Assembly (NCBI GenBank): GCA_028819295.1
Contig: JAPPMA010000015.1
Coordinates: 1-64,000 of the forward strand
Source: a bacterium
Lineage (GTDB): Bacteria > Actinomycetota > Acidimicrobiia > Acidimicrobiales > Bin134
Reading direction: 5' to 3'
Length of the DNA: 64,000 bases
The position numbers and the translations under genes are program-made. Each line of letters starts with the position of its first letter. Position 1 is the stretch's first letter. Below are positions 11,646 to 59,074 of this stretch, piece after piece. Under the pieces are notes generated by a model that made no database searches, was not told the DNA's origin, and saw only the letters and a program-made list of their open reading frames with translations.

Positions 11646-12869
11646 ATGGCACAAGTGGGCGATGACATCATCGTGCTGGACAGTGTCTACAAGATCTTCG
11701 GACCCCAACCCCGCGGAAGGGCGTTCGAGCTCGCCAGCTCCGGGATGGGCAAAGACGAGGTGCAGGCCGAGACCGGGCATGTGGTGGGCCTCCACAACGT
11801 GTCGTTCTCGGTGCCCAGGGGAGAGATATTCGTGGTGATGGGCCTGTCGGGGTCGGGCAAGTCCACCGCCATCCGCACCGTCAACAAGCTCCACGACATC
11901 ACTGCGGGCACCGTCACCGTCGAGGGCACCGACGTTCAGACCCTTGAGGGCTCAGAGCTTCAGGCATTCCGCAGGAGCCAGATGGGGATGGTCTTCCAGC
12001 ACTTCGCACTGTTCCCCCATCGCAACGTGATCGACAACGTGAGCTACGGCCTCAAGGTCCAGGGCGTCGACAAGGACGCCCGCAGCGAAGCGGCCATGCG
12101 GGCCTTGGCGTTGGTCGGACTCGACGCCTATTCGCAGAACATGCCGTCGGAGCTTTCCGGCGGTATGCAGCAGCGGGTGGGCTTGGCCCGAGCGCTGGCG
12201 GCGGACCCCGAAATACTGCTGATGGACGAGGCCTTCAGCGCCCTAGACCCGCTGATCCGCCGCCAGATGCAAGACGAGCTGCTGGAAATCCAGAGCGAGC
12301 TCCAAAAGACCATCCTGTTCATCACCCACGACCTCAACGAGGCGCTCCGCATCGGAGACCGGGTGTGCATTATGAAGGATGGCGCTGTCGTGCAGATCGG
12401 CACGCCTGAGGAGATTCTCACCGAGCCGGCCACCGGGTATGTGGCTGAGTTTGTGCAGGATGTCGACCAAGGCCGCGTCATCCAGGTACACGAGGTCATG
12501 CAAGTGCCGGCACCCGTTGCCGCCAGCGCCACCATCGCCGAAGCCCTCAGTGCTATGGGTGACCGCATCGGCGCGTTCGTGTTGGATGCCGCAGGTGCGC
12601 CCACCCATCTGCTGACCGTCGAAGACGCGGCCCGGGCTGCCAGCATGGGTACCACTGATCTGGCTCGTGCGCTTCGCACCGACTTTGAGCGCTGCGGCCC
12701 CGACGACCGCCTCAACGAGGTATACGCCGCCGCTGGCCGCGGCCTTTCAATCGCGGTGTGCGACGAGTCGGGTGTGCTGGTCGGGAATCTCGACCCCCGT
12801 CACATCATGGAAGAAATGGGCCGGGTCGAGAACCTGATCGATGGTTTCGAGAGAGAGGTATTCCTGTGA
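11646..12869 (+). CDS. proV: Glycine betaine/proline ABC transporter ATP-binding protein
   Basis: 407 residues. Walker A is GLSGSGKST, the signature LSGGMQQRVGLARAL, and Walker B ILLMDEAFSALDP; the last is the distinctive ProV/OpuAA wording. The C-terminal 120 residues (VHEVMQVPAPVAAS onward and the DESGVLVGNLDPRHI block) are tandem CBS modules that sense ionic strength in OpuA. A strong GGAAGGAG ribosome-binding site precedes the ATG. The stop overlaps the GTG of the permease gene. The expected role is compatible-solute uptake energised from the cytoplasmic face. Confidence 0.93.
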   Translation: MAQVGDDIIVLDSVYKIFGPQPRGRAFELASSGMGKDEVQAETGHVVGLHNVSFSVPRGEIFVVMGLSGSGKSTAIRTVNKLHDITAGTVTVEGTDVQTLEGSELQAFRRSQMGMVFQHFALFPHRNVIDNVSYGLKVQGVDKDARSEAAMRALALVGLDAYSQNMPSELSGGMQQRVGLARALAADPEILLMDEAFSALDPLIRRQMQDELLEIQSELQKTILFITHDLNEALRIGDRVCIMKDGAVVQIGTPEEILTEPATGYVAEFVQDVDQGRVIQVHEVMQVPAPVAASATIAEALSAMGDRIGAFVLDAAGAPTHLLTVEDAARAASMGTTDLARALRTDFERCGPDDRLNEVYAAAGRGLSIAVCDESGVLVGNLDPRHIMEEMGRVENLIDGFEREVFL

Positions 12870-15199
12870 GCCTGCTGGCCCAGTCGGAGTCCCCCGGTAT
12901 TGCCGACAACGAGGTCCTCGACCAGTGGACGATTCCGTTCGGCGAATGGGTCAAGCAGATGGTCAACTGGATCGACCTCAACCTCGGCTGGCTGCTCGGC
13001 ATCATCGAGTGGCCATTTACTTTCCTCTTCCGCAACTTTGTTGATGGTCCCAACCACCATCCCTGGTGGGAAATCACCGACATGCCGTGGATCGCGGTTT
13101 GCCTCATCTTTTTCGTGATCGGCACGCTGGCCCGCAACGTGAAAGTCGGCGGCTTCGTCGCGTTGGCGTTGGCCGGCTGCGGACTACTCGGCATTGAATA
13201 CTGGGATGACACAGCGTTGACAGTGGGCATGATCATTGTCGCCGTCGCACTCTGCGCCCTTATCGGCATTCCCCTCGGTGTCCTTTGTGGCCGATTCGAT
13301 GGGGTGTGGAATGCCGTGCGTCCTGTGCTCGACGCTATGCAGGTTGTGCATGCGTTTGTGTACATGCTGCCGGTCATCTTCTTCTTCGGTATCGGTACCG
13401 AACCAGCCACGATGGTCACCATGGTGTTTGCCCTGCCGCCGCTAATTCGTCTCACCAACCTTGGAGTCAGACAGGTGCCCGCGGATGTAGTGGAGGCCAG
13501 TCGGGCCTACGGGGCCCCCGAGTGGCGCGTGCTGCTAGATGTCCAGCTTCCATTGGCGCGTCCTGCAATCATGACCGGACTCAACCAGACGTTGCTGTTG
13601 TCTATCTCCATGCTGGGTATCGCTGCCATCATGGGTGCGGGCGGATTGGGCTTGCAGGTTTTTCGGGCGGTGCAGTCACTAGACGTTGCTCTAGCCGCTT
13701 CGAGCGGTCTGGCTCTGTTCATGGTCGCAGTGGTGCTAGACCGCATCTCTCAGACTGAGGAGAGTGATGGTCAGAACCTCTTTACACGCATCCGCCGGGC
13801 TTGGGCCCATCGTCGCGATCCCGAAGCACTGCTTCCCCAGGCATCGTCGATCGGCGTCGTGGCCAAGACGAGAAGCCACCCGGCACCACTGTCGGCAGCC
13901 GAGCGCCGCTTCTTGACAATCGTTGCAGCCGGCGCCCTCATTGCTGTTGTTGCGGTGTTCTTGCCATGGGGGAGTGACTCGGGAAGGATTTCCGGATATG
14001 CCAGGTTGATTGACACCGGGCGATACGAATACGTCGAAGTTGACCCCGTGAGGTCCCCTGGGATGGTCGAGCTTCAGGAAGCGAGTGTCGATCCGCCCGC
14101 CGAACGTGCCCAAGAGATTGCCGTGCTCGATGCCCAGATCAATGCGGTGGTTGTAGCAGCAGGGGCTGAGGGGGTAACAGACGAAGAGACGCTAGCGGTC
14201 ATTGCCGATATTGAGAATGACATTGCGTTGCTTTCCAATCCTCTGGCAGGTCGCAGCTATCGCGGTTTGGATGCAACCGGTGGGTCCTTCTACGGCATCA
14301 TGGTGCTCGGTTTCGCTGTGTTGATTCTTGCTGCGGTTGTGACCAATCTGAGACGACTAGGTGGAGATATTCGCCTGTTTGGGTCAAATGGCGTCGTGGT
14401 GCTTGCCGTTGGGTCCCTGGCTGCGGCGATCGCCTATGTCTGGGCGCCGGCAGCATCGGCCAACGTCACACATAACATGGGAGTCGGTCCTTGGGTCGCC
14501 ATTGTGGGCGGGGTGGTAGCGACCCTGGGCGCACTTGCCTGGCTTCGGGAGGCACCCTACGCAGCCCGCACCCCCCTGAGAGCTGGCGTCTCGTACAGCC
14601 AAATCGGTGTGGTCGCCGTTGTTGCTGCGCTGATTGTCATAGCTGGGTTCTCGGGATGGTCCATCGATCAACGCGTCGAGTCCGTTGTTTCACCAGAACT
14701 CCAGGCAGAAGTCTCGGCTTTGGAGCAGCAAGCAGAAAACAGCGACGATCCTGCTGTCGAAGCTCGCATAGCTCAAGAGATCATTGCGCTTTACAGCGCG
14801 GCTCAGCGAACCGAAAAGATTGTCACAGACGGCTTTTCTGGCGACGGCAGCAAGTACGGCTATCTCGCCATCGCCTTCGGCACCATTGGCGTCGTTTGTG
14901 TGCTGCCCGCGGCCGGGGTTTTCGGTAGCAATGAGAGAAAGCGACGGCGCTGGAACGCGGTGGTCGCCGGCGTCGGCGTCAGTCTGATGGTTGTAGCGTC
15001 GGCGTGGATCGCTTCTCTGCTCAGGGTGGCCGATATCAAATTCTCCAGCGGCGCAGGCGCCTTTTTGTGTCTGGTCGCGGGATTCCTCCTCATGGCGAGT
15101 ACGGCCGGTGTGCTGATGAAGTTCGGCCGATCACAGGTGTATGTCTCTGTCGATGAGCCAGAAGTGGCGCCGGAAGGAGCAACGGCCGACATCGGGTAA
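12866..15199 (+). CDS. proW: Glycine betaine/proline ABC transporter permease with long C-terminal extension
   Basis: 777 residues from the GTG at 12866, whose TG is shared with the proV stop (GTGA). The first 320 or so residues are a ProW permease, with the EAA loop VEASRAYGAPEWR and the usual IMGAGGLG. Normal ProW/OpuAB proteins are 280-350 residues. Here another 450 residues follow, with about six extra predicted membrane segments and two soluble Glu/Ala-rich stretches (one near VELQEASVDPPAERAQ, one near ELQAEVSALEQQAEN). I do not recognise this extension. It may be a fused accessory membrane domain. No frameshift separates it from the permease. Confidence 0.9.
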   Translation: MSLLAQSESPGIADNEVLDQWTIPFGEWVKQMVNWIDLNLGWLLGIIEWPFTFLFRNFVDGPNHHPWWEITDMPWIAVCLIFFVIGTLARNVKVGGFVALALAGCGLLGIEYWDDTALTVGMIIVAVALCALIGIPLGVLCGRFDGVWNAVRPVLDAMQVVHAFVYMLPVIFFFGIGTEPATMVTMVFALPPLIRLTNLGVRQVPADVVEASRAYGAPEWRVLLDVQLPLARPAIMTGLNQTLLLSISMLGIAAIMGAGGLGLQVFRAVQSLDVALAASSGLALFMVAVVLDRISQTEESDGQNLFTRIRRAWAHRRDPEALLPQASSIGVVAKTRSHPAPLSAAERRFLTIVAAGALIAVVAVFLPWGSDSGRISGYARLIDTGRYEYVEVDPVRSPGMVELQEASVDPPAERAQEIAVLDAQINAVVVAAGAEGVTDEETLAVIADIENDIALLSNPLAGRSYRGLDATGGSFYGIMVLGFAVLILAAVVTNLRRLGGDIRLFGSNGVVVLAVGSLAAAIAYVWAPAASANVTHNMGVGPWVAIVGGVVATLGALAWLREAPYAARTPLRAGVSYSQIGVVAVVAALIVIAGFSGWSIDQRVESVVSPELQAEVSALEQQAENSDDPAVEARIAQEIIALYSAAQRTEKIVTDGFSGDGSKYGYLAIAFGTIGVVCVLPAAGVFGSNERKRRRWNAVVAGVGVSLMVVASAWIASLLRVADIKFSSGAGAFLCLVAGFLLMASTAGVLMKFGRSQVYVSVDEPEVAPEGATADIG

Positions 15200-15212: not shown

Positions 15213-16418
15213 TTTGGTGTAGGGTGTGGCCTCTAGGCGGGTTGGTGCGCTCTGAGGCGGGCCAAGCTTGACTTCAATTGGAGGGTTACCAATGAGAGAG
15301 CGCAGCTATTGGCGAGTTTTGCTGGCCATTCTTCTGGCCTTCGGGCTGGTTGTGGCGGCTTGTGGCAATGATGATGATGACGAGGCTCCGGCCGCGCCTG
15401 CGGAGGAGGCTCCGGCCGCGCCTGATGACGAGGCTCCGGCCGCGCCTGCGGAGGAGGCTCCGGCCGACGCGATGCCTGGTGAGGGTGTCAGCGTGACCAT
15501 GGCTCGGGCCGACTGGGCCACTGGTTATATGCAGGCGGCTATCTACCACCACCTGCTGGAAGAACTTGGCTATGACGTGAGCGAGCCTGCCGATATTGAG
15601 CTTGCGCCTTCGAACGCGTACGTGGCTATGGCTGAGCGCGAGTTCGATTTCTGGGCCAACTCGTGGTATCCGAACCACGACCCGTTCGTCGCGGGCGAGA
15701 TGCCCGATGGCTCTTTGGTGAGCGATCACGTGTCGAAGGTGGGCCTTGAGGCCGGGCGCGGCGGCATCGAGGGCTTGTTGACCAACAAGTCGCTGGTGGA
15801 AGAGCACGGCATCAGAACTCTTGATCAGCTCGTGGGAGACGAGGATCTGTTCCAGCTGTACGAGGCGGCCGACAAAGAGCCCGGCGATGGGGTGCTCCAG
15901 ATTTATGGGTGCCCCGAGGGCTGGGGGTGCAACCTGTTCATTGCCGGCCTGATTGAGGACAAGGGTTGGACCGGCAGGGTCCAGCAGGTTGAGGTGGGCG
16001 GCTACGACGCCACCTTCGCCGACGCAGTCGACCGCGCTGGCAGCGGCACCCCGTTCATCGCGTACACGTGGAGCCCGAGCTTCTATACGAACCACATCGG
16101 GCCTGGTGACCAGGCCATGTGGCTGTCGATAGACGGGGGTGCGCCCACCCTGCTCGGCACCGATGTCTGCACCGATGATCCGTGCAACCTCCTCATTACC
16201 GCTGACATCCAGGTGACGGCCAACAACGACTTCCTTGTCGAGAACCCGGCCGCGGCGAGGCTGCTGGAGCTGGTGGAGATCAGCGTGGTCGACATCGCAC
16301 TGCAGAACGCGCGCTACGACACCGGCGGTGAGAACACCACCGCTGACGTCAACCGCCACGCCGCCGAGTGGATCGCCGACAACCGCGACACAGTCGACGC
16401 CTGGCTAGCAGAAGCCCG
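15213..16418. repeat. 1,206-bp perfect direct repeat, copy A
   Basis: Matches 18121-19326 with no difference that I can see by eye. Sense and antisense translations over most of it are also identical in the two copies. It starts 14 bases after the proW stop and carries the untranslated leader, ribosome-binding site, signal peptide and OpuAC domain. It ends inside the codons following WLAEAR, where the two proteins diverge abruptly. The offset between copies is exactly 2,908 bases. Confidence 0.97.
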
Positions 16419-17429: not shown

Positions 17430-17633
17430 GTGCAGATGATGGCTGGCGGGGCGTCGTTGCCTGGTGCTGGTGGCGGCACGCTGGGGAACTGGGTGCGCCG
17501 GGATCGCGCTGAGCGGGCCGGCGGGCTGAATTCCGATGAGCGGGCCGAGTTGGAGCGGTTGCGCAGGGCGAACGCGGCTTTGCGCATGGAGCGTGATGTT
17601 CTCAAACAATCGGTGGTTCTTTGGGTGAACTAG
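17430..17633 (+). pseudogene. IS3-family OrfA fragment
   Basis: The C-terminal part of an IS3-family OrfA, with [14 protein letters not shown], the leucine-zipper-like stretch [20 protein letters not shown] and the end QSVVLWVN. The N-terminal helix-turn-helix is missing: the frame upstream has no family character, and no terminal inverted repeat can be recognised to the left. The OrfB frame overlaps its last 13 bases, the usual arrangement for programmed frameshifting. Confidence 0.8.
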
Positions 17634-18016
17634 GCAACGCGGTGACCGCAGAGTTCATCGCGGCCCAGAGGACCGATCACGGTGTGCCTCATGCGGTGGC
17701 GTGTCGGGCGTTGGGTGTGGCGCCCTCGACTTTCTATAAGCACCTCGACCGGTCTCTGACCGATCAGCAGGTCTGCCGCCAGGCCACGGACGCCGAGGTG
17801 AAGCGGGCGTTCGACCGCTTCCAGGGGACCTACGGGTCTCCCAGAGTGCGCCCCCAGCTGCGCCGCGACGGGATGTCGGTGTCGAAGAAGACGGTGGAGG
17901 CGTCGTTGGCCCGCCAGGGTCTGTGCATCCGCCCCAAAAAGAAGAAGGGCCTGACCGGCCAGGGCCCTGCCCATGCGGCCCCCGAGGACCTGCTGTCGTG
18001 GCTAGATGGTGCGTAA
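17621..18016 (+). pseudogene. IS3-family OrfB (transposase) fragment, truncated before the rve domain
   Basis: 131 residues. AEFIAAQRTDHGVPHAVACRALGV and STFYKHL are the HTH_21 region of an IS3 transposase, and YGSPRVRPQLRRDGMSVSKKTVE is the block just before the integrase core. It stops after QGLCIRPKKKKGLT plus about 20 unrelated residues, so the DDE catalytic domain is absent and the element cannot move itself. An inverted repeat TTCGGGGC/GCCCCGAA at 18044-18051 and 18068-18075 follows; it may be a residual end or a hairpin. The remnant lies between the two copies of the 1,206-bp repeat. Confidence 0.8.
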
Positions 18017-18120: not shown

Positions 18121-19326
18121 TTTGGTGTAGGGTGTGGCCTCTAGGCGGGTTGGTGCGCTCTGAGGCGGGCCAAGCTTGACTTCAATTGGAGGGTTACCAA
18201 TGAGAGAGCGCAGCTATTGGCGAGTTTTGCTGGCCATTCTTCTGGCCTTCGGGCTGGTTGTGGCGGCTTGTGGCAATGATGATGATGACGAGGCTCCGGC
18301 CGCGCCTGCGGAGGAGGCTCCGGCCGCGCCTGATGACGAGGCTCCGGCCGCGCCTGCGGAGGAGGCTCCGGCCGACGCGATGCCTGGTGAGGGTGTCAGC
18401 GTGACCATGGCTCGGGCCGACTGGGCCACTGGTTATATGCAGGCGGCTATCTACCACCACCTGCTGGAAGAACTTGGCTATGACGTGAGCGAGCCTGCCG
18501 ATATTGAGCTTGCGCCTTCGAACGCGTACGTGGCTATGGCTGAGCGCGAGTTCGATTTCTGGGCCAACTCGTGGTATCCGAACCACGACCCGTTCGTCGC
18601 GGGCGAGATGCCCGATGGCTCTTTGGTGAGCGATCACGTGTCGAAGGTGGGCCTTGAGGCCGGGCGCGGCGGCATCGAGGGCTTGTTGACCAACAAGTCG
18701 CTGGTGGAAGAGCACGGCATCAGAACTCTTGATCAGCTCGTGGGAGACGAGGATCTGTTCCAGCTGTACGAGGCGGCCGACAAAGAGCCCGGCGATGGGG
18801 TGCTCCAGATTTATGGGTGCCCCGAGGGCTGGGGGTGCAACCTGTTCATTGCCGGCCTGATTGAGGACAAGGGTTGGACCGGCAGGGTCCAGCAGGTTGA
18901 GGTGGGCGGCTACGACGCCACCTTCGCCGACGCAGTCGACCGCGCTGGCAGCGGCACCCCGTTCATCGCGTACACGTGGAGCCCGAGCTTCTATACGAAC
19001 CACATCGGGCCTGGTGACCAGGCCATGTGGCTGTCGATAGACGGGGGTGCGCCCACCCTGCTCGGCACCGATGTCTGCACCGATGATCCGTGCAACCTCC
19101 TCATTACCGCTGACATCCAGGTGACGGCCAACAACGACTTCCTTGTCGAGAACCCGGCCGCGGCGAGGCTGCTGGAGCTGGTGGAGATCAGCGTGGTCGA
19201 CATCGCACTGCAGAACGCGCGCTACGACACCGGCGGTGAGAACACCACCGCTGACGTCAACCGCCACGCCGCCGAGTGGATCGCCGACAACCGCGACACA
19301 GTCGACGCCTGGCTAGCAGAAGCCCG
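18121..19326. repeat. 1,206-bp perfect direct repeat, copy B
   Basis: Identical to 15213-16418. The left boundary is abrupt: the bases before it (tail of the IS3 remnant region) do not match the end of proW. The right boundary is inside the coding sequence, where copy A encodes Asn-Ala-Ser and copy B enters the BMP-domain fusion. Confidence 0.97.
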
Positions 19327-20272
19327 AGCCGCTACCGAATACACGCTCGCGCCTCCGCCGGCACCAACGCCTTTCCGTGTGGCGGTAGTGGCGCCGAGCG
19401 CGAGCAACGACTTGGCGTTCACTCAGAGTATTTTCGACGCGGTGACCGCCCTCGAGAATGCCGGACACATCAGTGAATTTGCCATCACCGACGGCACCTT
19501 GATCGTGGAGGACGCAGGCGCCGCCCTTCGGGGCTATGCCGAAGATGGCTACGACCTGGTCATCGCCCACGGTTCCCAGTACGGCGGCCCGCTCCAGGAG
19601 ATCGCACCGGACTTCCCCGACGTATCGTTCATCTGGGGCACCGCCGTTGACACCTTCGGCATTCCCAATGTGAACTCCTACTCGGTTTGCTCCGATTTGG
19701 GCGGATATGTCAACGGTGTGGTCGCCGCACAGCTCACAGAGAGCAACGTGATCGGCGTGGTCGGCCCACTCGAAGTGGGCGACGCCAAGCTCTATGTCGA
19801 CGGGTTCAAAGCTGGAGCCGAAGCTCAGAATCCCGACGTCGAGGTCAAAATCGTCTACACCGGCTCGTTCGGTGATGTGGCGCTGGCCGCAGAAGCCGCC
19901 GAATCGCACATCTCCGCCGGGGCCGACGTGCTGACCGGCTCGGCTCAGATGGTGGTGGGCGCCACCGGAGTGGCCCAGCAGAACGATGTGCTGTGGTTCG
20001 GCACCCAGGCCAACCAGACTGCCCTGGGCGAGGACATCGTGGTGGCTTCGCAGGTGTACCGCTGGGAGGTCATCCTCTCTGAGGTGGTCGATCAGGTCAA
20101 GAGTGGCACTTTGGGCGGGACTGAATACATCATGACCTTCGAAGGCGGAGGACTAGACATTCAGTTCAACCCGGCCATGGACATCCCCGCTGACGTAATA
20201 ACCTCAGCCGAGGCGACCATCGCTGGCCTGTCCGACGGATCGATCTCAACTGGTCAGCCGTGTAGCTCCTGA
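18200..20272 (+). CDS. Chimeric lipoprotein: OpuAC (betaine-type) domain fused to BMP-family nucleoside-binding domain
   Basis: 690 residues. Residues 1-375 are identical to the ProX-like protein at 15292: lipobox VVAAC, acidic linker and OpuAC domain. After a short Ala/Pro linker a second complete binding-protein fold begins at about residue 392 with FRVAVVAPSASNDLAFTQS and continues through SYSVCSDLGGYVNGVVAA and TGSAQMVVGATGVAQQND. This is the BMP/PnrA/Med family that delivers purine nucleosides to an ABC importer. The next gene, 14 bases on, is the matching two-domain ATPase, so the BMP half is likely the native partner and the OpuAC half an acquired front end. Whether both ligand sites function is unknown. 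Confidence 0.88.
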   Translation: MRERSYWRVLLAILLAFGLVVAACGNDDDDEAPAAPAEEAPAAPDDEAPAAPAEEAPADAMPGEGVSVTMARADWATGYMQAAIYHHLLEELGYDVSEPADIELAPSNAYVAMAEREFDFWANSWYPNHDPFVAGEMPDGSLVSDHVSKVGLEAGRGGIEGLLTNKSLVEEHGIRTLDQLVGDEDLFQLYEAADKEPGDGVLQIYGCPEGWGCNLFIAGLIEDKGWTGRVQQVEVGGYDATFADAVDRAGSGTPFIAYTWSPSFYTNHIGPGDQAMWLSIDGGAPTLLGTDVCTDDPCNLLITADIQVTANNDFLVENPAAARLLELVEISVVDIALQNARYDTGGENTTADVNRHAAEWIADNRDTVDAWLAEARAATEYTLAPPPAPTPFRVAVVAPSASNDLAFTQSIFDAVTALENAGHISEFAITDGTLIVEDAGAALRGYAEDGYDLVIAHGSQYGGPLQEIAPDFPDVSFIWGTAVDTFGIPNVNSYSVCSDLGGYVNGVVAAQLTESNVIGVVGPLEVGDAKLYVDGFKAGAEAQNPDVEVKIVYTGSFGDVALAAEAAESHISAGADVLTGSAQMVVGATGVAQQNDVLWFGTQANQTALGEDIVVASQVYRWEVILSEVVDQVKSGTLGGTEYIMTFEGGGLDIQFNPAMDIPADVITSAEATIAGLSDGSISTGQPCSS

Positions 20273-20286
20273 CCGAATAACCGAGT

Positions 20287-21843
20287 ATGAATACTGACTC
20301 GGCAGCGCCGAGGCCGGCACCGATGCTGGAGATGCGCGGTATTACCAAGCGCTTCCCCGGTGTGGTGGCCAACGAGGACGTTGACTTCACGGTACTGCCG
20401 GGTCAGGTTCATACCCTTCTGGGAGAGAATGGAGCAGGCAAGAGCACGCTGGTGAAGATCCTCTACGGGCTCTACCAGCCCGACGAGGGGTCGATTACCT
20501 TCGATGGCTCCCCAGTGAACATCGATTCGCCCTCAGTGGCGATTCATACTGGCATCGGCATGATCCACCAGCACTTCATGCTGGTGGACACCCTGACCGT
20601 GGCCGAGAACGTGGCCCTGGGACTGGGCACACCGCTCAGCCTGACCAACCTCCAGCCGATTCGCCGGCGTATTCGAGAAGTATCTGAGGAGTTCGGCCTG
20701 CACGTCGATCCCGATGCCTATATCTGGCAGATGGCGGTGGGAGAGCGACAGCGGGCCGAGATCGTCAAGGCGCTGTACCGAAACGTGAGACTGCTGGTGC
20801 TGGACGAGCCCACCGCGGTGCTGACCCCGCCCGAGGTTTCCGATTTGTTCGTCACCCTCCGACAGCTCAGCTCCGATGGAAGAGGGCTGGTGTTCATCTC
20901 TCACAAGCTGAACGAGGTGATGGAGATCTCCGACGAGATCACGGTGCTGCGTGACGGCAAGGTCTCGGGGCGCACCACCCCGGAAGAATCCAGCAGGGAG
21001 TCGCTGGCCATGATGATGGTGGGGCGCCCGGTGGAGTTCACCCGCACCCTCGCCGAGCAGGAGCCGGGCGATCCCAAGCTGGAGGTGAAAAGCCTCCAGG
21101 TTCGGGGCGACCGCGAGGAACTGGCGGTGCGCGATGTGAACATCGACGTGCGGGCCGGTGAGATCGTGGGCATCGTGGGAGTGTCGGGCAATGGGCAGCG
21201 GGAATTGGCCGAGGCCATTGTCGGTTTGCGGGAGACCGAGTCGGGCGAAATCTCTATCGACGGCAATCTGGTGAAAACCCCCACCCCCAAGCAGGTGCGG
21301 TCGATGGGCTTGGCCTATGTGCCCGAAGAGCGCATGAAGTACGGCAGCATCGGCGACTTCACCGTGGCCGAGAACCTGATTTTGGCCGACTACGACCAGC
21401 CGCCCTACGCGCGGAGCGGGCTGCTGAGCCTTCGCACTATCGAGTCCCGCAGCGAACAGTTGGTCAGCGACTACTCCATACGCACGCCGAGCACTGAGAC
21501 CCTTACCCGCAAACTGTCGGGAGGCAACATTCAAAAGGTGGTGATTGCCCGGGAGTTCAGCGGCGAGGCCGATGTGCTGCTGGTGGCCCAGCCGACCAGG
21601 GGAGTCGACATCGGGGCGGCCGAGTACATTCACGAGCAGCTGCTCACCCAGCGGTCTCAAGGCCGGGCCATTTTGCTGATCAGCGAGGATTTGGACGAGG
21701 TGATGGCGCTGTCCGACCGGCTGGTGGTGATGTACGAGGGATCGGTGATGGGCCGATTAGACCGGGCCGATGCCACCGTCGAGCAGGTGGGCCTGCTCAT
21801 GAGCGGCGTGGGCGAGCCCGAGAGCGCAGCAACAGCAGGATAA
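20287..21843 (+). CDS. Nucleoside/simple-sugar-type ABC transporter ATP-binding protein (BmpE/YufO-like, tandem ABC domains)
   Basis: 518 residues with two ABC modules. The first has Walker A GENGAGKST, signature VGERQRAEIVKAL and Walker B LLVLDEPTAVLTPPE. The second is degenerate in Walker A (GVSGNGQREL) but has LSGGNIQKVVIAREF and VAQPTRGVDIGA, as in RbsA/MglA/YufO proteins. It directly follows the BMP-type binding protein. Permeases normally follow this gene but here a VapBC module and tRNA-Sec do. A matching permease pair lies at 57009-59074. The expected role is to energise uptake of nucleosides such as guanosine or inosine. Confidence 0.9.
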   Translation: MNTDSAAPRPAPMLEMRGITKRFPGVVANEDVDFTVLPGQVHTLLGENGAGKSTLVKILYGLYQPDEGSITFDGSPVNIDSPSVAIHTGIGMIHQHFMLVDTLTVAENVALGLGTPLSLTNLQPIRRRIREVSEEFGLHVDPDAYIWQMAVGERQRAEIVKALYRNVRLLVLDEPTAVLTPPEVSDLFVTLRQLSSDGRGLVFISHKLNEVMEISDEITVLRDGKVSGRTTPEESSRESLAMMMVGRPVEFTRTLAEQEPGDPKLEVKSLQVRGDREELAVRDVNIDVRAGEIVGIVGVSGNGQRELAEAIVGLRETESGEISIDGNLVKTPTPKQVRSMGLAYVPEERMKYGSIGDFTVAENLILADYDQPPYARSGLLSLRTIESRSEQLVSDYSIRTPSTETLTRKLSGGNIQKVVIAREFSGEADVLLVAQPTRGVDIGAAEYIHEQLLTQRSQGRAILLISEDLDEVMALSDRLVVMYEGSVMGRLDRADATVEQVGLLMSGVGEPESAATAG

Positions 21844-21913: not shown

Positions 21914-22150
21914 ATGCGAACTACGATTATTTTGCCCGATGGGTTGGCCGAACGGGCCAAAAGGCACGCTGCCGAGCGAGGATGCACTTTTACCTCGCTG
22001 GTGATAGACGGCCTCCAACTAATGTTGCAGAGCACGTCTGGCGATTCGCCGCCGCCTCTGCCCATCTACCTCGGCGACGGGCAGATGCTTGTTGACATAA
22101 CCGACAGAGAAGCCCTCTGGGAAACGCTCGACGCCGACGGCTGGCGATGA
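21914..22150 (+). CDS. vapB: VapB-type antitoxin (ribbon-helix-helix)
   Basis: 78 residues from the ATG at 21914 (MRTTIILPDGLAERAKRHA); an ATG at 21902 would add four residues (MLFH) and lies nearer to the AGGAG at 21884. The opening strand plus helices are those of a ribbon-helix-helix DNA-binding protein. The C-terminal part (LVDITDREALWETLDAD) is acidic and would neutralise the toxin. The stop overlaps the toxin start as ATGA. Confidence 0.8.
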   Translation: MRTTIILPDGLAERAKRHAAERGCTFTSLVIDGLQLMLQSTSGDSPPPLPIYLGDGQMLVDITDREALWETLDADGWR

Positions 22151-22581
22151 TCCTTCCTGATGTCAACATCCTTGTCTATGGGTTTCGGAGCGACTTGCCT
22201 CAACATCCGAGCAGCCGGGCATGGCTTGAGAGTGTTCGCTCCGGACCTGAGCCGCTAGGGCTTGCCGATGCGGTTCTCACCAGCTTTCTGCGGCTGGTGA
22301 CGAATCGAAGGGTCTTTGCCGACGCTGCGACGATCTCCGATGCCCTCTCGTTCACGTCAGCGCTGCGGGAGACGCCCAATTGCCGGAACCTGGTGCCTTC
22401 CAACGCAACCTGGGAGCAATTCTCGGTGTTCGCCTCAAACGACCCATACATTGTCGGCAACCATGTCCCCGACGCCTGGCTCGCGGCTCTTGCCATGTCC
22501 AACGGCGCCCGGCTCGCCACCGCCGATGCTGGATTCGCCCGATTCAAGGGCCTGTCCTGGTTCAACCCCCTCCTCGCCTGA
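22147..22581 (+). CDS. vapC: VapC-type PIN-domain toxin
   Basis: 144 residues. MILPDVNILVYGFR provides the first PIN-domain acidic residue (Asp5), ADAVLTSFLRLVTNRRVF the second region, and DAWLAALAMSNGARLATADAGFARF the C-terminal acidic pair. VapC proteins are Mg2+-dependent ribonucleases that often cut tRNA or rRNA. Its start overlaps the antitoxin stop. Directly downstream are the right-hand direct repeat (22637) and tRNA-Sec. Confidence 0.88.
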   Translation: MILPDVNILVYGFRSDLPQHPSSRAWLESVRSGPEPLGLADAVLTSFLRLVTNRRVFADAATISDALSFTSALRETPNCRNLVPSNATWEQFSVFASNDPYIVGNHVPDAWLAALAMSNGARLATADAGFARFKGLSWFNPLLA

Positions 22582-22636
22582 CGGCGGCGGGGAGCAACAT
22601 CCAAACCGAGGCTGCAACAGCAGCGGGACAAGCCGG

Positions 22637-22656
22637 CCTGGTCGAATCGCAAGAAT
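22637..22656. repeat. Imperfect 20-bp direct repeat, right flank of VapBC
   Basis: CCTGGTCGAATC-GC-AAGAAT, the partner of 21849-21868, lying 55 bases after the vapC stop and 24 bases before tRNA-Sec. Confidence 0.7.
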
Positions 22657-22680
22657 CGACAGTAGGCTGACTCCCTCCCG

Positions 22681-22773
22681 GGAGGTGTCTGAGTACCTGG
22701 TGGGCTCCCCCGCCTTCAAAGCGGGTGGGACGGGCGATCCCCGTCCGGCGGGTTCGATTCCCGTCCACCTCCG
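22681..22773 (+). tRNA. selC: tRNA-Sec (anticodon UCA)
   Basis: A 93-base cloverleaf with a long acceptor and a long variable arm. Acceptor GGAGGTG pairs with CACCTCC and is followed by discriminator G. The anticodon arm is CCCGC-CTTCAAA-GCGGG with anticodon TCA. The variable arm GGACGGG-CGAT-CCCGTCC has a 7-bp stem, and the T arm is GCGGG-TTCGATT-CCCGT. The 8-nt stretch between T stem and discriminator matches the 8/5 plan of bacterial tRNA-Sec, although the eighth pair is T-C here. CCA is not encoded. It reads UGA as selenocysteine together with SelA and SelB encoded at 48.9-52.0 kb. Confidence 0.95.
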
Positions 22774-24381
22774 CTATCCGGCGGCCTTGCGTGCAGGCAT
22801 GGCGATGGCATTGAAGAGCGACGGCGCATCCTGAGCCCTTCCCCACTGTTGAAGGAGTTGATCGGCTGCCCGGGCGATCGCAGTGGCATCCAGGTGCTGC
22901 CCGGCTTTTGCGAGAGCGTCCCGCGCGTCCCTCTCGACTCCGGCGCGGTGGTGATGAAGAATGGCAGCGAGGTCAATGCGCTGGAGCAGCTTCTTCGTCA
23001 CCGGCCGCTTGGCGTCGGCGAAGAGCAACGACTTGAGGAGGAGGGCTGCGGCTTCACTGGTCAGCGCACTGAGGATGAGGGCTGCCTCGGCTGCTGATTC
23101 GCACGGCAGGAAGTATGACGTGTCGTCAAACAAGACGGGCCGGTCCTCGCTCGGACCCACGAGTTGGAACCTAGGGGCCTTGTGGAGGCCCGAGGCTGCA
23201 ACCTTCCATGGCGCGAATGTGTAGGGCCCGATGCCGAACATTGAGAAGGCTGCTCGGCTTCGGTATATCGACGACTTGCGGGCAGCGAACCGTTCCGCAT
23301 GGACCTGCAAGTAGTTCCAGAGCTTGGGTGCTGTGTACCGGAGGCTCCTCGTCTCATCGGCCAGCGACCGCTGAGTCACGACGACGTAGCGCTCCGGGGC
23401 CCGGCCTGCGTTGACATCTGAGCCCTTTAGGAGGGGATACACCCAGTCGCCTTCAACCTCGACGGCCTCACCTAACGCATTTTGGAGTTTGCCGTCCTCA
23501 TTGGGGCGAAGCTCCATGACGGCAGCCATATCGTGCTTGACGCCCTGTCGCCACTCCACCGGCGACGAGCCGTCATATGGCCGAGATGCCGCGTGAGCAT
23601 CCACATCGGCAACGAGAGCACCATCTACCAATCCCATAGTGCTCGCGGGACAGCCTGCATCAAGCGACTCGAAGACTTGGCATCGGTAGTTGTGGCTAGT
23701 CCCATCGAGCCGGACAGCGAAGAGGCAGGCGTCGACTGCTGCCCCGAACGACTTCTTCGCGTCGATTCGCCACAGGAACGAATCAGCCACATGCAGGTCC
23801 AGGTGGGCTGCCAGCGTGAGAACCCGGCGCGCGACGGAAGTCTTGCAAAGGAGGGCGACGGTCGGCTCCTCTCGACGCAGTTCCGTGAGCAGCCGCATCC
23901 AGATGTACTCGGCAACGTCGAAGTTCGACTCGCCCGTCAGCGCGTCGATCCCCCGCACAGAACGCAGGTTCGCACGGTCGGGGACTTGTTTTGAGCCCAT
24001 GGCGCCGAGGTCGGACAACGTGACCCATGGCGGATTCCCGAGGACAAGCAGTGGCCCATCCATCTCCCACTGGAGCTTGCCCAAATCGTGCCGGAACATA
24101 TCGCCCACCTCAACTCGCCACGAAACGTCCTTGGCGGCAGAGTGGTCGAGGAGACGACGCGCGACGGCAGCATGGGTTGGCTGTATCTCGACTCCTAGCA
24201 TTTCGATGCGCGGCTCGAGGACCGAGGCCGCGGCGAGCATGAAACTCCCCTCACCACATGTCGGTTCCAGTACCCGGCGCGTTCCACGCTGAATCGTTGC
24301 TAGTACTTGAGCGCACTCGACTGCGAGTTCCCGAGGCGTCTGGAAATCGCCGAGTTCCTTACGAGAAGAGGTCTTGGACAC
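22774..24381 (-). CDS. N6-adenine DNA methyltransferase (restriction-modification type)
   Basis: About 535 residues. Motif I is VLEPTCGEGSFMLAA and the catalytic motif IV is NPPWVTLSD, typical of gamma-type N6-adenine methylases; the rest would hold target recognition. I chose the GTG at 24381 because AGGAAGGG stands 7 bases before it; the frame is open to an ATG at 24441. It overlaps the end of the upstream gene by about 20 bases, so the two are coupled. The stop codon immediately abuts the 3' end of tRNA-Sec. With its neighbour it likely forms a type II restriction-modification system. Confidence 0.85.
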   Translation of the reverse strand: MSKTSSRKELGDFQTPRELAVECAQVLATIQRGTRRVLEPTCGEGSFMLAAASVLEPRIEMLGVEIQPTHAAVARRLLDHSAAKDVSWRVEVGDMFRHDLGKLQWEMDGPLLVLGNPPWVTLSDLGAMGSKQVPDRANLRSVRGIDALTGESNFDVAEYIWMRLLTELRREEPTVALLCKTSVARRVLTLAAHLDLHVADSFLWRIDAKKSFGAAVDACLFAVRLDGTSHNYRCQVFESLDAGCPASTMGLVDGALVADVDAHAASRPYDGSSPVEWRQGVKHDMAAVMELRPNEDGKLQNALGEAVEVEGDWVYPLLKGSDVNAGRAPERYVVVTQRSLADETRSLRYTAPKLWNYLQVHAERFAARKSSIYRSRAAFSMFGIGPYTFAPWKVAASGLHKAPRFQLVGPSEDRPVLFDDTSYFLPCESAAEAALILSALTSEAAALLLKSLLFADAKRPVTKKLLQRIDLAAILHHHRAGVERDARDALAKAGQHLDATAIARAADQLLQQWGRAQDAPSLFNAIAMPARKAAG

Positions 24382-25015
24382 CGTCGACCCTTCCTGCGCT
24401 CGCGATTGCGTGGCCATACTGAAGCCGCCACTGAAGGGCATTGCTGATTGTGATGAAGCCCTGTGTCGGGGGGTCGCTGAGAACTCGCTCCGCCAAGGCC
24501 ATGCGACCGATTTCGTCTAGCGGCAGAGTTCGGTCCTCCATGAAACCAACGAGATCTTCGGCATTCCCGCCGCGGTCGAGTATCTCGGTGATTCCCCTCG
24601 TCGTCTGGTAGTCGCCGGTCCTCGACCGGTCGATGAAAACCGCGTGGCGAACATCGATTGCCGCAGACTGGGTCTCGTGAGCGTCGGTCTTCTCGTAAAC
24701 GAACACGAGCAGGCCGTAGCCCAAACCGAAGATCTTCTGCGACGCGTCGCGGAACGGACACGATGACTGCGGTTGTTTGACGAAAGTCGCTTTGAGATCA
24801 ACCCCAAGCTCCGGGAAGTCAATCCCACGAGCTGCGATTCCAGGCTCATACGCGTACCGCCCTATGAGGAACTCGTTGAATCTCGCCTCCACCCAGGTGC
24901 CCAGCGCCTTGCCATCTGTTGTGCCGAATAATTCGGTGACCGGCGCGTCGCCAAGCGACTCCGCGAACTCAGCAGCCGCGGCCTTCAAGCCATTGAGGTC
25001 GAGTGAGCTTGGCAT
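24359..25015 (-). CDS. Probable type II restriction endonuclease
   Basis: 218 residues, no confident family match. GIDFPELGVDLKATFVK has the spacing of a PD-(D/E)xK nuclease core (acidic residue, then DLK), preceded by a helix containing WVEARFNEFL that could carry the first catalytic Glu. The position directly upstream of, and overlapping, a DNA adenine methylase is the classic arrangement for the cognate endonuclease. Either ATG 25015 or GTG 25018 can start it; GGTGGA lies just before. A MutH/Sau3AI-like enzyme is a reasonable alternative description. Confidence 0.65.
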   Translation of the reverse strand: MPSSLDLNGLKAAAAEFAESLGDAPVTELFGTTDGKALGTWVEARFNEFLIGRYAYEPGIAARGIDFPELGVDLKATFVKQPQSSCPFRDASQKIFGLGYGLLVFVYEKTDAHETQSAAIDVRHAVFIDRSRTGDYQTTRGITEILDRGGNAEDLVGFMEDRTLPLDEIGRMALAERVLSDPPTQGFITISNALQWRLQYGHAIASAGRVDGVQDLFS

Positions 25016-25196
25016 CACTCCACCCTAACGCTGCTATGTGACACCAGGCTTGACTCACCTGCGGTTGTCAGCATGGGCGTTCGCAGTGGATATCGCCGGT
25101 AGGCTCAGGTTGTGACCGTCTCGGTCTCGGCAGGGGGCACATGGGCGAATCAGAGCAGACTCATGGGTGCCGGGATTCCACCTCCTCTGAAGTGAA

Positions 25197-26108
25197 ATGA
25201 AGACACGCGTTGCTTTGAGGGAGCTTGAGAACTTCGTGGCTGTCGCGGAGTGCGGATCGGTGACTGAGGCTGCCGCGGTGGTGGGCATCTCGCAGCCGGG
25301 GCTGTCTGCTTCGATCCGCAACTTGGAGCGGGTGCTGGGGGTTCGCCTGCTGGTGCGCCACCGCGGTCGGGGAGTGTCGTTGACCCCGGAGGGGGATCTG
25401 CTGATGGCCGAGGCTCGGGCCACCCTGTCGCGCGCCGGCGAGCTGGAAGCCCGCATGTCGGCGGCGATTTCTGACGACTCGGGGCGAGTTCTGGTCGGGT
25501 CACTGGTCACCGTGGCGCCCATCGTCACACCATCGCTGGTCCGCCGGTTTCGCGAGCAGCATCCCGGCATTGCCGTGGAGATCCGCACCGGCACTCAAGA
25601 CGAGCTGCTGGCCTGGCTTCGCACCGGCGCCGTACACGCGGCCATCACCTACGACATCGAGCTGGGACGGGAGGTGGACTTCGAGCGCGTTCTCGACATC
25701 GAGGCCCACGCGGTGATCAACGCCTCACACCGCCTCGCCGACCACGCGGTGATCGACCTCGAAGCCCTTGCGGGGGATCCCTACATTCTCCTCGACCTCC
25801 CCTTGAGCCGTGAGTACTTCATGTCGCTGTTTTTGGCCACCGGCATCGCCTATCACCCCGCAGCCCGTCACGCCGACATCTCCCTGGTTCGCACACTTGT
25901 GGGCAACGGGTTCGGGTATTCGCTGGTCAACCTGCTGCCTGCCACCGACATCGCCCAAGACGGCAGCCGCGTCGTCTACGTCCCCCTGCGCAGCGAGCTC
26001 CCGTCGCTGGGGCTGGGCCTCGCGCGCCGATCCGACGACAAGCCCCCCCGAGCCCTCGAGACCTTCGTGGACTTCGCGCGGTCAGCGCTGGTGCTTCCCC
26101 GGCAATAG
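25197..26108 (+). CDS. LysR-family transcriptional regulator
   Basis: 303 residues. The N-terminal winged helix reads LRELENFVAVAECGSVTEAA, then GISQPGLSASIRNLERVLG and VSLTPEGDLL, the standard LTTR DNA-binding domain. Residues 90-300 are the periplasmic-binding-like effector domain. It lies upstream of, and on the same strand as, the transporter/catabolic run that starts at 26312, with an AT-rich 203-base gap between, so it is the obvious candidate regulator of that run. The same-strand layout is less common than divergent for LTTRs. The effector is unknown. Confidence 0.9.
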   Translation: MKTRVALRELENFVAVAECGSVTEAAAVVGISQPGLSASIRNLERVLGVRLLVRHRGRGVSLTPEGDLLMAEARATLSRAGELEARMSAAISDDSGRVLVGSLVTVAPIVTPSLVRRFREQHPGIAVEIRTGTQDELLAWLRTGAVHAAITYDIELGREVDFERVLDIEAHAVINASHRLADHAVIDLEALAGDPYILLDLPLSREYFMSLFLATGIAYHPAARHADISLVRTLVGNGFGYSLVNLLPATDIAQDGSRVVYVPLRSELPSLGLGLARRSDDKPPRALETFVDFARSALVLPRQ

Positions 26109-26311
26109 ACCGCCGAACTCCGCCCACTCCAGCTTTCGTCGGCATCTTGAATAAACAAATGTGATGACTTACATATAAAATATCTCTTTGATTTATCCGC
26201 AGACTGAGCCTACGGTGCCGGAAATGCTCGGGTTCAAAACCCTGCGGGTGGTGAACCCAACCCCTGGTCGCTTCGTGCTGCCGGGAGGACGCGGAAGGGG
26301 AGATTCACGGC
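26109..26311. promoter_or_regulatory. AT-rich regulatory gap before the transporter/catabolic operon
   Basis: This 203-base gap contains a distinctly AT-rich patch at 26147-26205, unusual in this GC-rich window. Inside it is an inverted repeat ATGT-N8-ACAT at 26159-26174, of the size bound by LysR-type regulators, followed at once by TATAAA. GGAAGGGGAG shortly before the GTG at 26312 is the ribosome-binding site. The promoter and operator assignment is inference. Confidence 0.5.
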
Positions 26312-27424
26312 GTGGAACCGAACCACGAGCGGGGAACGGTCTCATTGCGCGAGGTGACCAAGCGCTTCGGCGACACCTTGGCCGTTGCCGCCGTCGACCT
26401 TGAGGTGAAGGCGGGCGAGTTCATCTCCCTGCTCGGCCCCTCGGGCTGCGGGAAGACCACCACACTTCGGATGATCTCGGGCTTCGAGCACCCCTCGGAG
26501 GGTCGGGTGTTCATCAGCGGCCGAGACGTCACCGACACGCCTGCTCACCGCCGGACGGTCAACTCCGTTTTTCAGAGCTACGCGCTCTTCGGCCACATGA
26601 CGGTTGCCGACAACGTCGCCTTCGGGCTGCGGGTCAAACGGCGCGACAAGAAGACGATCGAGGCCAAAGTGCATGAGGCTCTCGATCTTGTTCAGCTCTT
26701 GGGCTTCCAATCCCGGTACCCCGGCCAGCTCTCCGGCGGACAGCAGCAGCGGGTGGCGCTGGCACGGGCTGTGGTCAACGAGCCTGAAGTGCTGCTCTTG
26801 GACGAGCCCCTCAGCGCACTCGACCTCAAGCTCCGCCAGGCCATGCGATTCGAGCTGACCCGCCTGCACGGCGACCTGGGAATGACCTTCGTGTTCGTCA
26901 CTCACGATCAGACCGAGGCGATCACGATGAGCGATCGCATCGCGGTGATGGATCAGGGGCGCATCCATCAACTCGGAACCCCCGTCGATATCTACGAGCG
27001 GCCCGCGTCGAGGTTTGTGGCCGAGTTCATCGGAGAGGTCAACATGTTGGAGGCCGCGGTGGTCGGGGGCGACGGTGCCCGAACCGAAGTGCTGCTGCCG
27101 TCGGGGCACCGGCTGACGTGTGCGCCAGTCGGCGCCGACGGCCTGAGCCCGGGCGCGCCGGTGGTTATCGCGGTGCGGCCGCAACGGGTTCTGCTCGCCC
27201 CGGAGGGCGAAATCGACCCCGGCGGGCACGCAGTGGTGACCGGCGAGCTGCGCGAGCTGCTGTTCTTGGGCGATTCGACCCGGGGCACCGTCCGCCTCGC
27301 CGACGGCTCGGAATTGGTGGCCACCCGCTACAACGAGGCCGGCACCCACCCGTTCGGACTCCTGCGCCCCGGAGACAGAGTCGACGCCGGCTGGAGGCAC
27401 GGTGCCGCGTGCCTGGTGGAATGA
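26312..27424 (+). CDS. potA: ABC transporter ATP-binding protein, PotA-like (polyamine/quaternary amine class)
   Basis: 370 residues, GTG start. Walker A is GPSGCGKTT, signature LSGGQQQRVALARAV, Walker B LLLDEPLSALDLKLR and H-loop FVTHDQTEA. A C-terminal TOBE domain (VVIAVRPQRVLLAPEG) completes the PotA/MalK-type subunit. It is first in an operon with two permeases and a binding protein, each overlapping the next by 4 bases. The class carries spermidine, putrescine and many other small cationic solutes, so the name indicates class, not proven substrate. Confidence 0.9.
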   Translation: MEPNHERGTVSLREVTKRFGDTLAVAAVDLEVKAGEFISLLGPSGCGKTTTLRMISGFEHPSEGRVFISGRDVTDTPAHRRTVNSVFQSYALFGHMTVADNVAFGLRVKRRDKKTIEAKVHEALDLVQLLGFQSRYPGQLSGGQQQRVALARAVVNEPEVLLLDEPLSALDLKLRQAMRFELTRLHGDLGMTFVFVTHDQTEAITMSDRIAVMDQGRIHQLGTPVDIYERPASRFVAEFIGEVNMLEAAVVGGDGARTEVLLPSGHRLTCAPVGADGLSPGAPVVIAVRPQRVLLAPEGEIDPGGHAVVTGELRELLFLGDSTRGTVRLADGSELVATRYNEAGTHPFGLLRPGDRVDAGWRHGAACLVE

Positions 27425-30715: not shown

Positions 30716-30759
30716 CCGGTTGCCCACCGAACCGCCGAGCTGACGGTCTGGAGCCAGGA

Positions 30760-31932: not shown

Positions 31933-31984
31933 ATGCCGTTCACCCCAGGCTTCATCTGATTCCGACCGCCGAAGGAGGCCGTCA

Positions 31985-33321: not shown

Positions 33322-33343
33322 GAAGGCGGCCGGGGGTGGGCCG

Positions 33344-57008: not shown

Positions 57009-57944
57009 TTAGCCATCCCGGGTGAATGGGCGGGTGAGGGCTGCGGGTTGGCCGATGCGCCGGCTCACCACCACCAGCACGATCACCGTCAAAACCGCGG
57101 GGGCCATGTTGGCGATGGATGCCACCGATCCTGAGATGACGTCTTGGACCTGGAGTTGCAGCACGGTGGAGGACACGATGCCGAACAGCAGGGAACCGGT
57201 CATCACCCCGACTGGCCGCCACGCCCCGAAGTACACCAGGGCGATGGCGATGAACCCGCGACCCGCAGTGAGGTTCTGCTGGAATATCCCGATCTCCAAG
57301 GCCAAAGCCGCCCCGGCCAGCCCGGCCATGGTGTTGCCGATGACGATCGCCGCGGTGCGAATGCCGTTCACGCTCACGCCCAAGGTGTCGGCCGCTTGCG
57401 GGTTTTCCCCCACAGCTCGCACGTTGAGGCCGAAGGTGGTCTTGGTGATGAGCCAATAGATCACCGGCACCAGCAAGAAGGCCACATAAGTGAGGATGGT
57501 GTGGCTGAACAGCAGTTCGCCCGCTCGGCCGGTGTCGTCGGCCAGCCAGTTGAAGGGCTTGGTCTGCAAACCGCTGATCGGCCGGGGGGTGCCCACCTGC
57601 TTTTGGAACAGCAGGTCGGTGAAGCCCAGGCCGAAAAGGTAGATCCCGATTCCGCTGATGCCCTGTTCGGCGTGCATCACCACGGTGATGAAGGCGTAGA
57701 TGAGGCCCATCGCCATGCCCGTCACCAGCCCCATCAGCAGCCCGAGGGCGGCGTTGCCCGTCTCCAGTGCGGTGTAGTAGGCGGCGAACGCGCCGATGAG
57801 CATCACGCCTTCCACGCCCAGATTGAGCACCCCGGCCCGTTGGCCGACGGCCTCGCCCAGGGCGGCGAGCAGGAAGGGCACCGCCAGCCGGATGCCCGAC
57901 GCCAGGGTGGCGGTGATGATGGCGACGGTGAAGAAGTCGTTCAT
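57009..57944 (-). CDS. ABC transporter permease, nucleoside type (BmpG/YufQ-like)
   Basis: 311 residues, about eight to nine membrane segments. RAGVLNLGVEGVMLIGAF is the characteristic opening of the YufQ/RbsC-like nucleoside permeases, and GLNVRAVGENPQAADTLGVSV is the conserved cytoplasmic loop. The start overlaps the stop of the partner permease by 4 bases. Its ATPase and binding protein are not adjacent; the matching pair is at 18200-21843. Confidence 0.92.
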   Translation of the reverse strand: MNDFFTVAIITATLASGIRLAVPFLLAALGEAVGQRAGVLNLGVEGVMLIGAFAAYYTALETGNAALGLLMGLVTGMAMGLIYAFITVVMHAEQGISGIGIYLFGLGFTDLLFQKQVGTPRPISGLQTKPFNWLADDTGRAGELLFSHTILTYVAFLLVPVIYWLITKTTFGLNVRAVGENPQAADTLGVSVNGIRTAAIVIGNTMAGLAGAALALEIGIFQQNLTAGRGFIAIALVYFGAWRPVGVMTGSLLFGIVSSTVLQLQVQDVISGSVASIANMAPAVLTVIVLVVVSRRIGQPAALTRPFTRDG

Positions 57945-59074
57945 GCCCGGTCCTCCATCTGGATGTCGCCCTCAGCCCATCGCTGCACTCGGGTTCGCAG
58001 TTTGAGGCTCCCCACCACGAACACCACCACCACGCCATTGAGGGCGATCACCAGAGCCTGGGGCACCTGCACCGCTCGTTGCAGGGAGATGCCACCGGCC
58101 AGCATCCCGCCGAACAGATAGGACGACAGCACGGTGAACAGCGGGTGCAGCCCTCCGAACAGCGCGGTCACGATGCCGTTGAACCCCGCACTCTGAGTGA
58201 ATGCCAGCGGGCCTCCCTCGCCGATCAGCCGGTGCGACTCGCTGCCGAACACCAGTACCGCACCGGCGATGCCGGCGCAGGCGCCGCTGAAAGCCAATGC
58301 CTGGGTGATGCTCATCTCGACTTTCATGCCCGCGGCCCGAGAGGCGTGGGGGTTGTGGCCCACCGCCCGCAGCCGCATGCCCAGGCTGCTGCGGAACAGC
58401 AGCAGATACCCCAAGACGGCCACGATCAGGGCCACCACGATGCCCAAGTGCAGTCGCGTCCCCCCCGGCAGAATGGGCAGGTCGGCATTCTGGGTCAAGC
58501 GCTTGGTTTGCTGGATCCTGATGGCGCCGGGCTCGATGAGCCAGTCCTCCAGCAGGAAGCTCATGAAGAACCCGGCGATGATGTTCATCATGATGGTGCT
58601 GAGGATCTCGTTGACCCCGCTATAGGCCTTGAGCGCTCCGGGGATCGCCCCCCAGATCCCCCCGCCGACGCCTCCAGCGATCATCACCAGCGGCACCAGA
58701 ATCGGACGGGGGACATCGGGCAGGGCCAGGGCCACCAGCGTGGCCAGGATGGCGCCCATGATGATCTGGCCTTCGCCACCGATGTTGATGACGCCGGTGC
58801 GGAAGGCGATGCAGATGCCGACACCAACCAGCATGAGGGGGATGGACTTCAGCGCGGTGGCGGCCAGCTCGTCAGGCCCTCCGAAAGCCCCGGTGAACAA
58901 CTCCCGGTAGCCGGTGAGCGGGTTGGCGCCGAATACTCCCAGAAGGATGGCGCCCACTGCCAGGGCTGCGATCACCGCAGCCGCGGGCACGACCAAACCG
59001 GCAAACGGTCGGAAATATCGACCTATGTCGTGTCTGCCAGAAGATTCTTGTTGACTATCTGCCATTTTCAACAT
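57941..59074 (-). CDS. ABC transporter permease, nucleoside type (BmpF/YufP-like)
   Basis: 377 residues with an ATG at 59074 (MLKMADSQQ) or an inner ATG. INIGGEGQIIMGAILAT is the YufP signature, SGVNEILSTIMMNIIAG the second conserved loop, and MRLRAVGHNPHASRAAGM the third. It has about nine membrane segments. It is first in a two-gene operon and is divergent from the tad locus. It would form the heteromeric channel with the YufQ-like protein. Confidence 0.92.
   Translation of the reverse strand: MLKMADSQQESSGRHDIGRYFRPFAGLVVPAAAVIAALAVGAILLGVFGANPLTGYRELFTGAFGGPDELAATALKSIPLMLVGVGICIAFRTGVINIGGEGQIIMGAILATLVALALPDVPRPILVPLVMIAGGVGGGIWGAIPGALKAYSGVNEILSTIMMNIIAGFFMSFLLEDWLIEPGAIRIQQTKRLTQNADLPILPGGTRLHLGIVVALIVAVLGYLLLFRSSLGMRLRAVGHNPHASRAAGMKVEMSITQALAFSGACAGIAGAVLVFGSESHRLIGEGGPLAFTQSAGFNGIVTALFGGLHPLFTVLSSYLFGGMLAGGISLQRAVQVPQALVIALNGVVVVFVVGSLKLRTRVQRWAEGDIQMEDRA

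Follow-up and report, generated by a model that had tools for sequence, protein, structure and literature searches.

A fused OpuAC-Bmp binding lipoprotein of possible dual importer service and its apparent origin by chromosomal inversion

Binding proteins of ABC importers are usually seen as one transporter's own. Can a single anchored protein serve two of them, and how might such a protein have come about? The question is raised by a gene in what is called here the window, the whole stretch of 64,000 nucleotides of acidimicrobial DNA that was analysed (Table 1). The original prediction read one frame as a lipid-anchored OpuAC domain followed by a Bmp domain, next to a nucleoside-type ATPase, and this reading was borne out: the frame is open throughout its 690 residues, and both domains lie above the Pfam gathering scores (OpuAC, PF04069, 9.3e-27 and 94.7 bits against 21.2; Bmp, PF02608, 3.1e-35 and 122.1 bits against 24.1). 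These are the only Pfam matches in the protein, whose binding domains are not fused to a permease. An acidic Ala/Pro stretch lies between the lipoprotein leader and the OpuAC domain. The Bmp domain has no leader before it, although its unfused orthologs do; the leader of the fusion is that of OpuAC, and the Bmp leader has been lost in all 12 fused genomes compared at the junction. The earlier picture of the neighbourhood was incomplete in two respects, since it missed an exact OpuAC copy in the upstream gene P0002 and the splitting of an operon. The nucleoside-type permeases missing beside the fusion sit in the same window, about 35 kb away and on the minus strand, and the Bmp-type importer set is complete in the genome, consisting of a tandem-domain ATPase and two PF02653 permeases, the latter in trans.

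Table 1. Coordinates of the features of the fusion locus in the window
Feature	Position	Strand	Basis or remark
proV-type ATPase with CBS match	11646..12869	+	Pfam
proW-type permease ORF with long C-terminal extension	12758..15199	+	Pfam; true start probably near 12866
Copy 1 of the exact 1206-bp repeat	15213..16418	+	Inside upstream gene P0002
Upstream gene P0002, 643 aa	15292..17223	+	Leader and OpuAC identical to those of the fusion, different C-terminus
Orphan C-terminal region C1 of P0002	16419..17223	+	No Pfam match
Transposase-like remnant (HTH_21), presumably IS3-type	17621..18016	+	Pfam; between the two OpuAC copies
Copy 2 of the exact 1206-bp repeat	18121..19326	+	79 bp of upstream region, leader, OpuAC domain
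OpuAC-Bmp fusion lipoprotein, 690 aa	18200..20272	+	ORF, Pfam, alignments
Lipoprotein leader of the fusion, lipobox VAAC	N-terminal		Sequence read directly
OpuAC domain of the fusion	18398-19285	+	Residues 67-362
Pro-rich linker of the fusion	about 19328-19372	+	Between OpuAC and Bmp
Bmp/PnrA domain of the fusion	19376-20164	+	Residues 393-655
Nucleoside-type ABC ATPase, 518 aa, two nucleotide-binding stretches	20287..21843	+	Pfam; 14 bp past the fusion stop
Permease 2 (PF02653-type) of the split nucleoside-type importer	57015..57944	-	Pfam on the G007 ortholog
Permease 1 (PF02653-type) of the split nucleoside-type importer	57944..59074	-	Pfam on the G007 ortholog

A stop or frameshift at the junction near 19326 would have undone the fusion, and the frame is intact there, with the same junction recurring in diverged genomes. 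Sequence crosses the OpuAC-Bmp junction in 13 of the 22 genomes of the genus (the window's own genome G000, together with G001, G003, G005, G008, G011, G012, G013, G014, G016, G019, G020 and G021). Full-length or near-full-length matches are present in seven of the 13, the six relatives being 63-91% identical (G013 from residue 58), and in the remaining fused genomes the contig starts or stops inside the fusion gene, for G021 within Bmp. Because the junction recurs in diverged genomes, neither chance nor a single assembly error explains the fusion; chance or a frame error was thus ruled out as its source. The protein is therefore no one-off. Outside the genus, no match spanning both domains was found among the matches listed from 397 genomes of the order, 296 of the class and 396 of the phylum (overlapping samples, a phylum threshold of E<=1e-60, and two or three candidates scored per genome). 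Elsewhere in the genus, Bmp is unfused, carries its own lipoprotein leader and is preceded by the PF02653 permeases in four of the 22 genomes (G004, G007, G010, G015). No Bmp ortholog was found in another four (G002, G006, G009, G018); behind permease 2 these have the gene, presumably MFS-like, that also stands there in fused genomes. G017 gave no close ortholog of the fusion-locus genes. The named relatives are metagenome-assembled Acidimicrobiia; Candidatus Poriferisocius and other sponge-suggesting names occur among the weaker matches, and by our reading of these names there may be a sponge link.

Gene order indicates how the two domains were brought together: the fusion appears to have originated by chromosomal inversion. 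In the single-contig genome G007, permease 1, permease 2, Bmp and the ATPase follow one another on the plus strand and, past about 30 kb, the MFS-like gene, proW2, proV2, a di-OpuAC gene, a DUF6576-type gene and a sulfatase all lie on the minus strand; the order in G015 is the mirror image. The operon order permease1-permease2-Bmp-ATPase is common to other families, and since permease 2 directly precedes Bmp in 17 of 19 loci outside the genus (the other two have no flank), it is taken to be ancestral. In the fused genomes a segment of 30-35 kb beginning at Bmp is inverted, whereby its opposite end comes to lie against permease 2, with the breakpoint in the window just below 57015, and Bmp comes after OpuAC. 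The inversion would thus both have split the operon and placed Bmp behind an OpuAC domain. In G003 and G005, proV2-proW2-MFS stand directly after permease 2, and the gap before proV2 retains the old Bmp 5' region: local alignments with G007, G015 and G010 scored 24-37, as high as none of 1000 plain base shuffles in each of six tests, against 314 and 987 of 1000 for a control gap (OpuAC-proV2 of G007). With such a regulatory remnant preserved, the inversion lets one read, as is seldom possible, how a fusion gene and a split operon came about together in a bacterium. No long shared repeat was found at the two breakpoints to explain it; in G007/G015, the longest exact stretches that the di-OpuAC gene shares with the Bmp 5' region measure 9-12 bp, with one further stretch of 19 bp at 89%. 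Inverted repeats of at least 40 bp were not found in the window, and a repeat-driven switch was accordingly rejected there; a simple tandem duplication of the window region was rejected too, the repeat spanning 1206 bp only. A DNA search in plasmids gave no match.

The course of events may have been as follows. One inversion, with breakpoints at the start of the Bmp gene and beside the di-OpuAC gene, would have put Bmp in the place of the second OpuAC domain of a di-OpuAC lipoprotein, and the OpuAC part would later have been exchanged and homogenised by gene conversion. The proteins of G007 and G015 have two OpuAC domains joined by an ASGFTPA.PEP-type linker, and the fusions of G003, G005 and G012 carry an OpuAC tail of this G007/G015 type with a similar linker before Bmp. 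Their OpuAC type differs from that of the remaining fusions, the domain of G012 being nearest to that of G015 (82%). The other fusions have a second OpuAC type, and the di-OpuAC linker of L114, ATEYTLAPTAPAP, resembles the G000/G019 linker ATEYTLAPPP. This likeness of linkers and tails to di-OpuAC proteins suggests that Bmp occupies the place of the second OpuAC domain; judging by the two domain types, most lineages probably exchanged their OpuAC part afterwards.

Concerted evolution was compared in nine genomes or loci with two or more full OpuAC copies. In seven of them (G000, G008, G007, G015, L114, one pair of L116 and one pair of L119) a pair of copies within the genome is 97.6-100% identical (95-100% at third positions), while the nearest other genome reaches 75-95% (58-90% at third positions). 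No such homogenisation is seen in G016 (87.7-91.8%), G018 (84.1%) or the other L116/L119 pairs (60-85%). Gene conversion or duplication gave the upstream gene of the window its exact 1206-bp copy. The exact repeat of G008 amounts to 1047 bp and covers the domain only, the first copy having a different leader and ending in a stop. Ahead of copy 1, the G000 sequence at first resembles the one preceding copy 1 of G008 (AAACCGGGGCGGCT); farther along it changes over to the sequence of the fusion, a pattern that points to the fusion as donor and to the upstream gene as recipient. Strong homogenisation was also observed within the di-OpuAC proteins of L043, L044, L114, L116 and L119, whose domains are 97.6-99.5% identical within a protein and far from those of other genomes. 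The tail C1 of P0002, behind a similar Pro-rich linker, makes a second case of another tail on the same OpuAC module. Across the 22 genomes of the genus no real relative of it came up: matches at E<=0.001 were obtained in five, of which one was the gene itself and the other four were weak (1.6e-4 to 6.4e-4). Folded alone, P0002 reached a pLDDT of 38.5, and the model of its tail was not used.

A single clean origin was not obtained on trees, where the placement of G014 conflicts. The Bmp+ATPase tree, built without G021, needs two state changes, with the fused G014 grouping with the unfused G007/G015 at 99/97 and the other 11 fused rows grouping at 85/97. In the permease tree, whose resolution is poor, G014 stands beside G006, and in the CoA/SDR tree (genes presumably of these types) it is again found with G007/G015. 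The position of G014 across these trees requires recombination or repeated inversion.

Nei-Gojobori dN/dS values show purifying selection acting on the two domains and likewise on the orphaned permeases. Among seven fused genomes, Bmp gave values of 0.058-0.158 in all 21 pairs, with no stop inside these frames, and OpuAC gave 0.11-0.36 in the 15 pairs without G012 and 0.24-0.78 in the six pairs with it, where synonymous changes are near saturation. The medians in fused genomes were 0.057 for permease 1 (66 pairs, range 0.01-2.14, with one pair an outlier at 2.1), 0.051 for permease 2 (63 pairs) and 0.099 for the ATPase (66 pairs); those in unfused genomes were 0.044, 0.079 and 0.113, respectively (six pairs each). 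The permease 1 of G012 (L073, L104) contains an in-frame TAG, either a sequence error or a broken gene. In the window's own Bmp, five genus-invariant columns are changed, and F436L falls at a column invariant in 19 other rows, which hints at drift in this genome. Of the 15 other genus rows, nine show no change at such columns, one to three occur in five, and G004 shows 12.

Modelling agreed with the predicted pair of ligand-binding folds. Residues W65, W140 and W188 of ProX, presumably its betaine tryptophan cage, all align with Trp in the OpuAC domain of the fusion. The AlphaFold model, built on a 10-row alignment, was moderate (pLDDT 67.1, pTM 0.48), and its best PDB matches in a fold search were ProX with glycine betaine (1r9l) and the Bmp/PnrA-type structures 4p98, 6pi5, 6yab, 2fqw and 6shu. 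The Bmp-fold proteins in the same match list include a riboflavin-binding one (4iil) and AtzT, named for triazine (6pi5). In Bmp/PnrA proteins two Phe stack on the base (PMC7093131). The Phe in NDLAFTQS and GSFGD of the fusion aligns to Phe of 6yab, a correspondence at the level of the alignment.

Purifying selection on both domains and on the orphaned permeases makes a binding protein for two transporters likely, and we assign a probability of about 0.6 to a lipid-anchored protein that works in this way. The ProVW importer would receive a betaine-type solute from the OpuAC domain, and the importer made of the adjacent ATPase and the two permeases about 35 kb off would receive a nucleoside-type ligand from the Bmp domain. 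The earlier proposal that two folds on one tether serve two transporters has thus gained intact folds, purifying selection, proVW upstream and the permeases themselves; the service to both is what we infer from these. No OpuAC gene other than the fusion lies between proW and the ATPase in G001, G011 and G012, so that ProVW has no other operon-encoded binding protein there. If the reading is true, a conserved two-class chain with permeases under selection amounts to one anchored receptor serving two importers. Somewhat short of even odds, and hence tentative, is the wider proposal that one inversion event created an obligatory link of two unrelated importers on one tether while splitting one operon, that a single polypeptide ties osmolyte uptake to nucleoside-type uptake in lineages without another operon-encoded OpuAC, and that the tandem binding-domain lipoproteins of the class are swappable cassettes.

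Other explanations concern the present role of Bmp or the reality of the single chain. Bmp could be a passenger, fused by accident of the inversion and losing function, above all in the window's genome, as the five G000-specific changes at invariant columns and the failure to find Bmp in four of the 22 genomes, these four having the inverted order, might indicate; with low dN/dS in every pair of the seven fused genomes, frames free of stops and conserved permeases, we consider this unlikely. A shade less plausible still is that Bmp now serves ProVW, widening the substrate range of one importer as a second domain does in GlnPQ, and that the nucleoside importer no longer uses it. Bmp does stand where related di-OpuAC proteins have their second OpuAC domain, with a similar linker before it, but the nucleoside-type ATPase still lies 14 bp downstream, both it and the two orphaned permeases are under strong purifying selection, and we know of no ProVW system that accepts Bmp-type proteins.

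That an assembler made the fusion, or the exact 1206-bp repeat, from short reads seems improbable. In its favour, those fused genomes that have names were assembled from metagenomes, many contigs break off within the OpuAC repeat, and neither of the two single-contig genomes (G007 and G015) carries the fusion; however, the junction recurs in separate assemblies at the identities given above (63-91%), and both ends of the inversion are consistent. The single-contig G007 and G015 have near-identical OpuAC copies as well; only the window's exact copy is not cleared in this way. We give the least credence to a frame translated or processed into two proteins, OpuAC and Bmp, acting apart: the Pro-rich linker has low predicted confidence at 385-389, but a separate Bmp product would have no export leader, this having been lost in all 12 junctions compared.

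As a two-domain protein serving two importers, the fusion would combine traits of several known systems. It shares with ProX/OpuAC proteins (PF04069; E. coli ProX, 1r9l) the OpuAC fold, the three presumed cage tryptophans and the adjacent proVW, but differs in having a lipoprotein leader and a second domain of another class. With Bmp/PnrA lipoproteins (PF02608; 2fqw, 6y9u, 6shu) it has in common the Bmp fold, an adjacent nucleoside-type ATPase and PF02653 permeases in the genome, whereas its Bmp lacks a leader of its own and the permeases lie about 35 kb away. Among the matches listed from the class Acidimicrobiia, di-OpuAC and di-Bmp frames are common, tandem Bmp-Bmp frames being observed in several families (e.g., L146 and L157). 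They have the same tether design, and the di-OpuAC proteins of G007, G015 and L114 have a similar inter-domain linker, but the two domains of such a frame are of one class and often nearly identical. GlnPQ likewise carries two binding domains in series on one chain, but its domains are fused to the permease and feed one transporter (PMC8025302), in contrast to the two classes, two presumed transporters and absent permease of the fusion. Rearrangement also makes a new fused gene in deletion-born bacterial fusions (PMC12803068), whereas here the event would be an inversion that split an operon at the same time; inversion in H. pylori is a known case of a rearrangement-born fusion (PMC3046158). 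Tandem binding domains and rearrangement-born fusions are thus already known, and the OpuAC-Bmp protein would be a new combination as far as searched. A literature search of partial coverage, and hence weak evidence of absence, found no OpuAC-Bmp fusion.

Apart from the fusion, the window differs from its relatives beyond the nucleoside-type ATPase. About 15 kb (22147-37150) separate this gene from the next conserved one and hold PIN and N6-methylase-type genes, along with what we take to be a LysR-type gene and a further ABC system. For the ORFs lying here, no match is present in those stretches of G007, G008, G015, G016 and G020 that were compared, and in these that conserved gene closely follows the ATPase. 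Farther downstream, a 66-bp direct repeat, 77% identical, lies at 43373-43438 and 44831-44896 inside one 905-aa frame, which is presumably GlnE-like.
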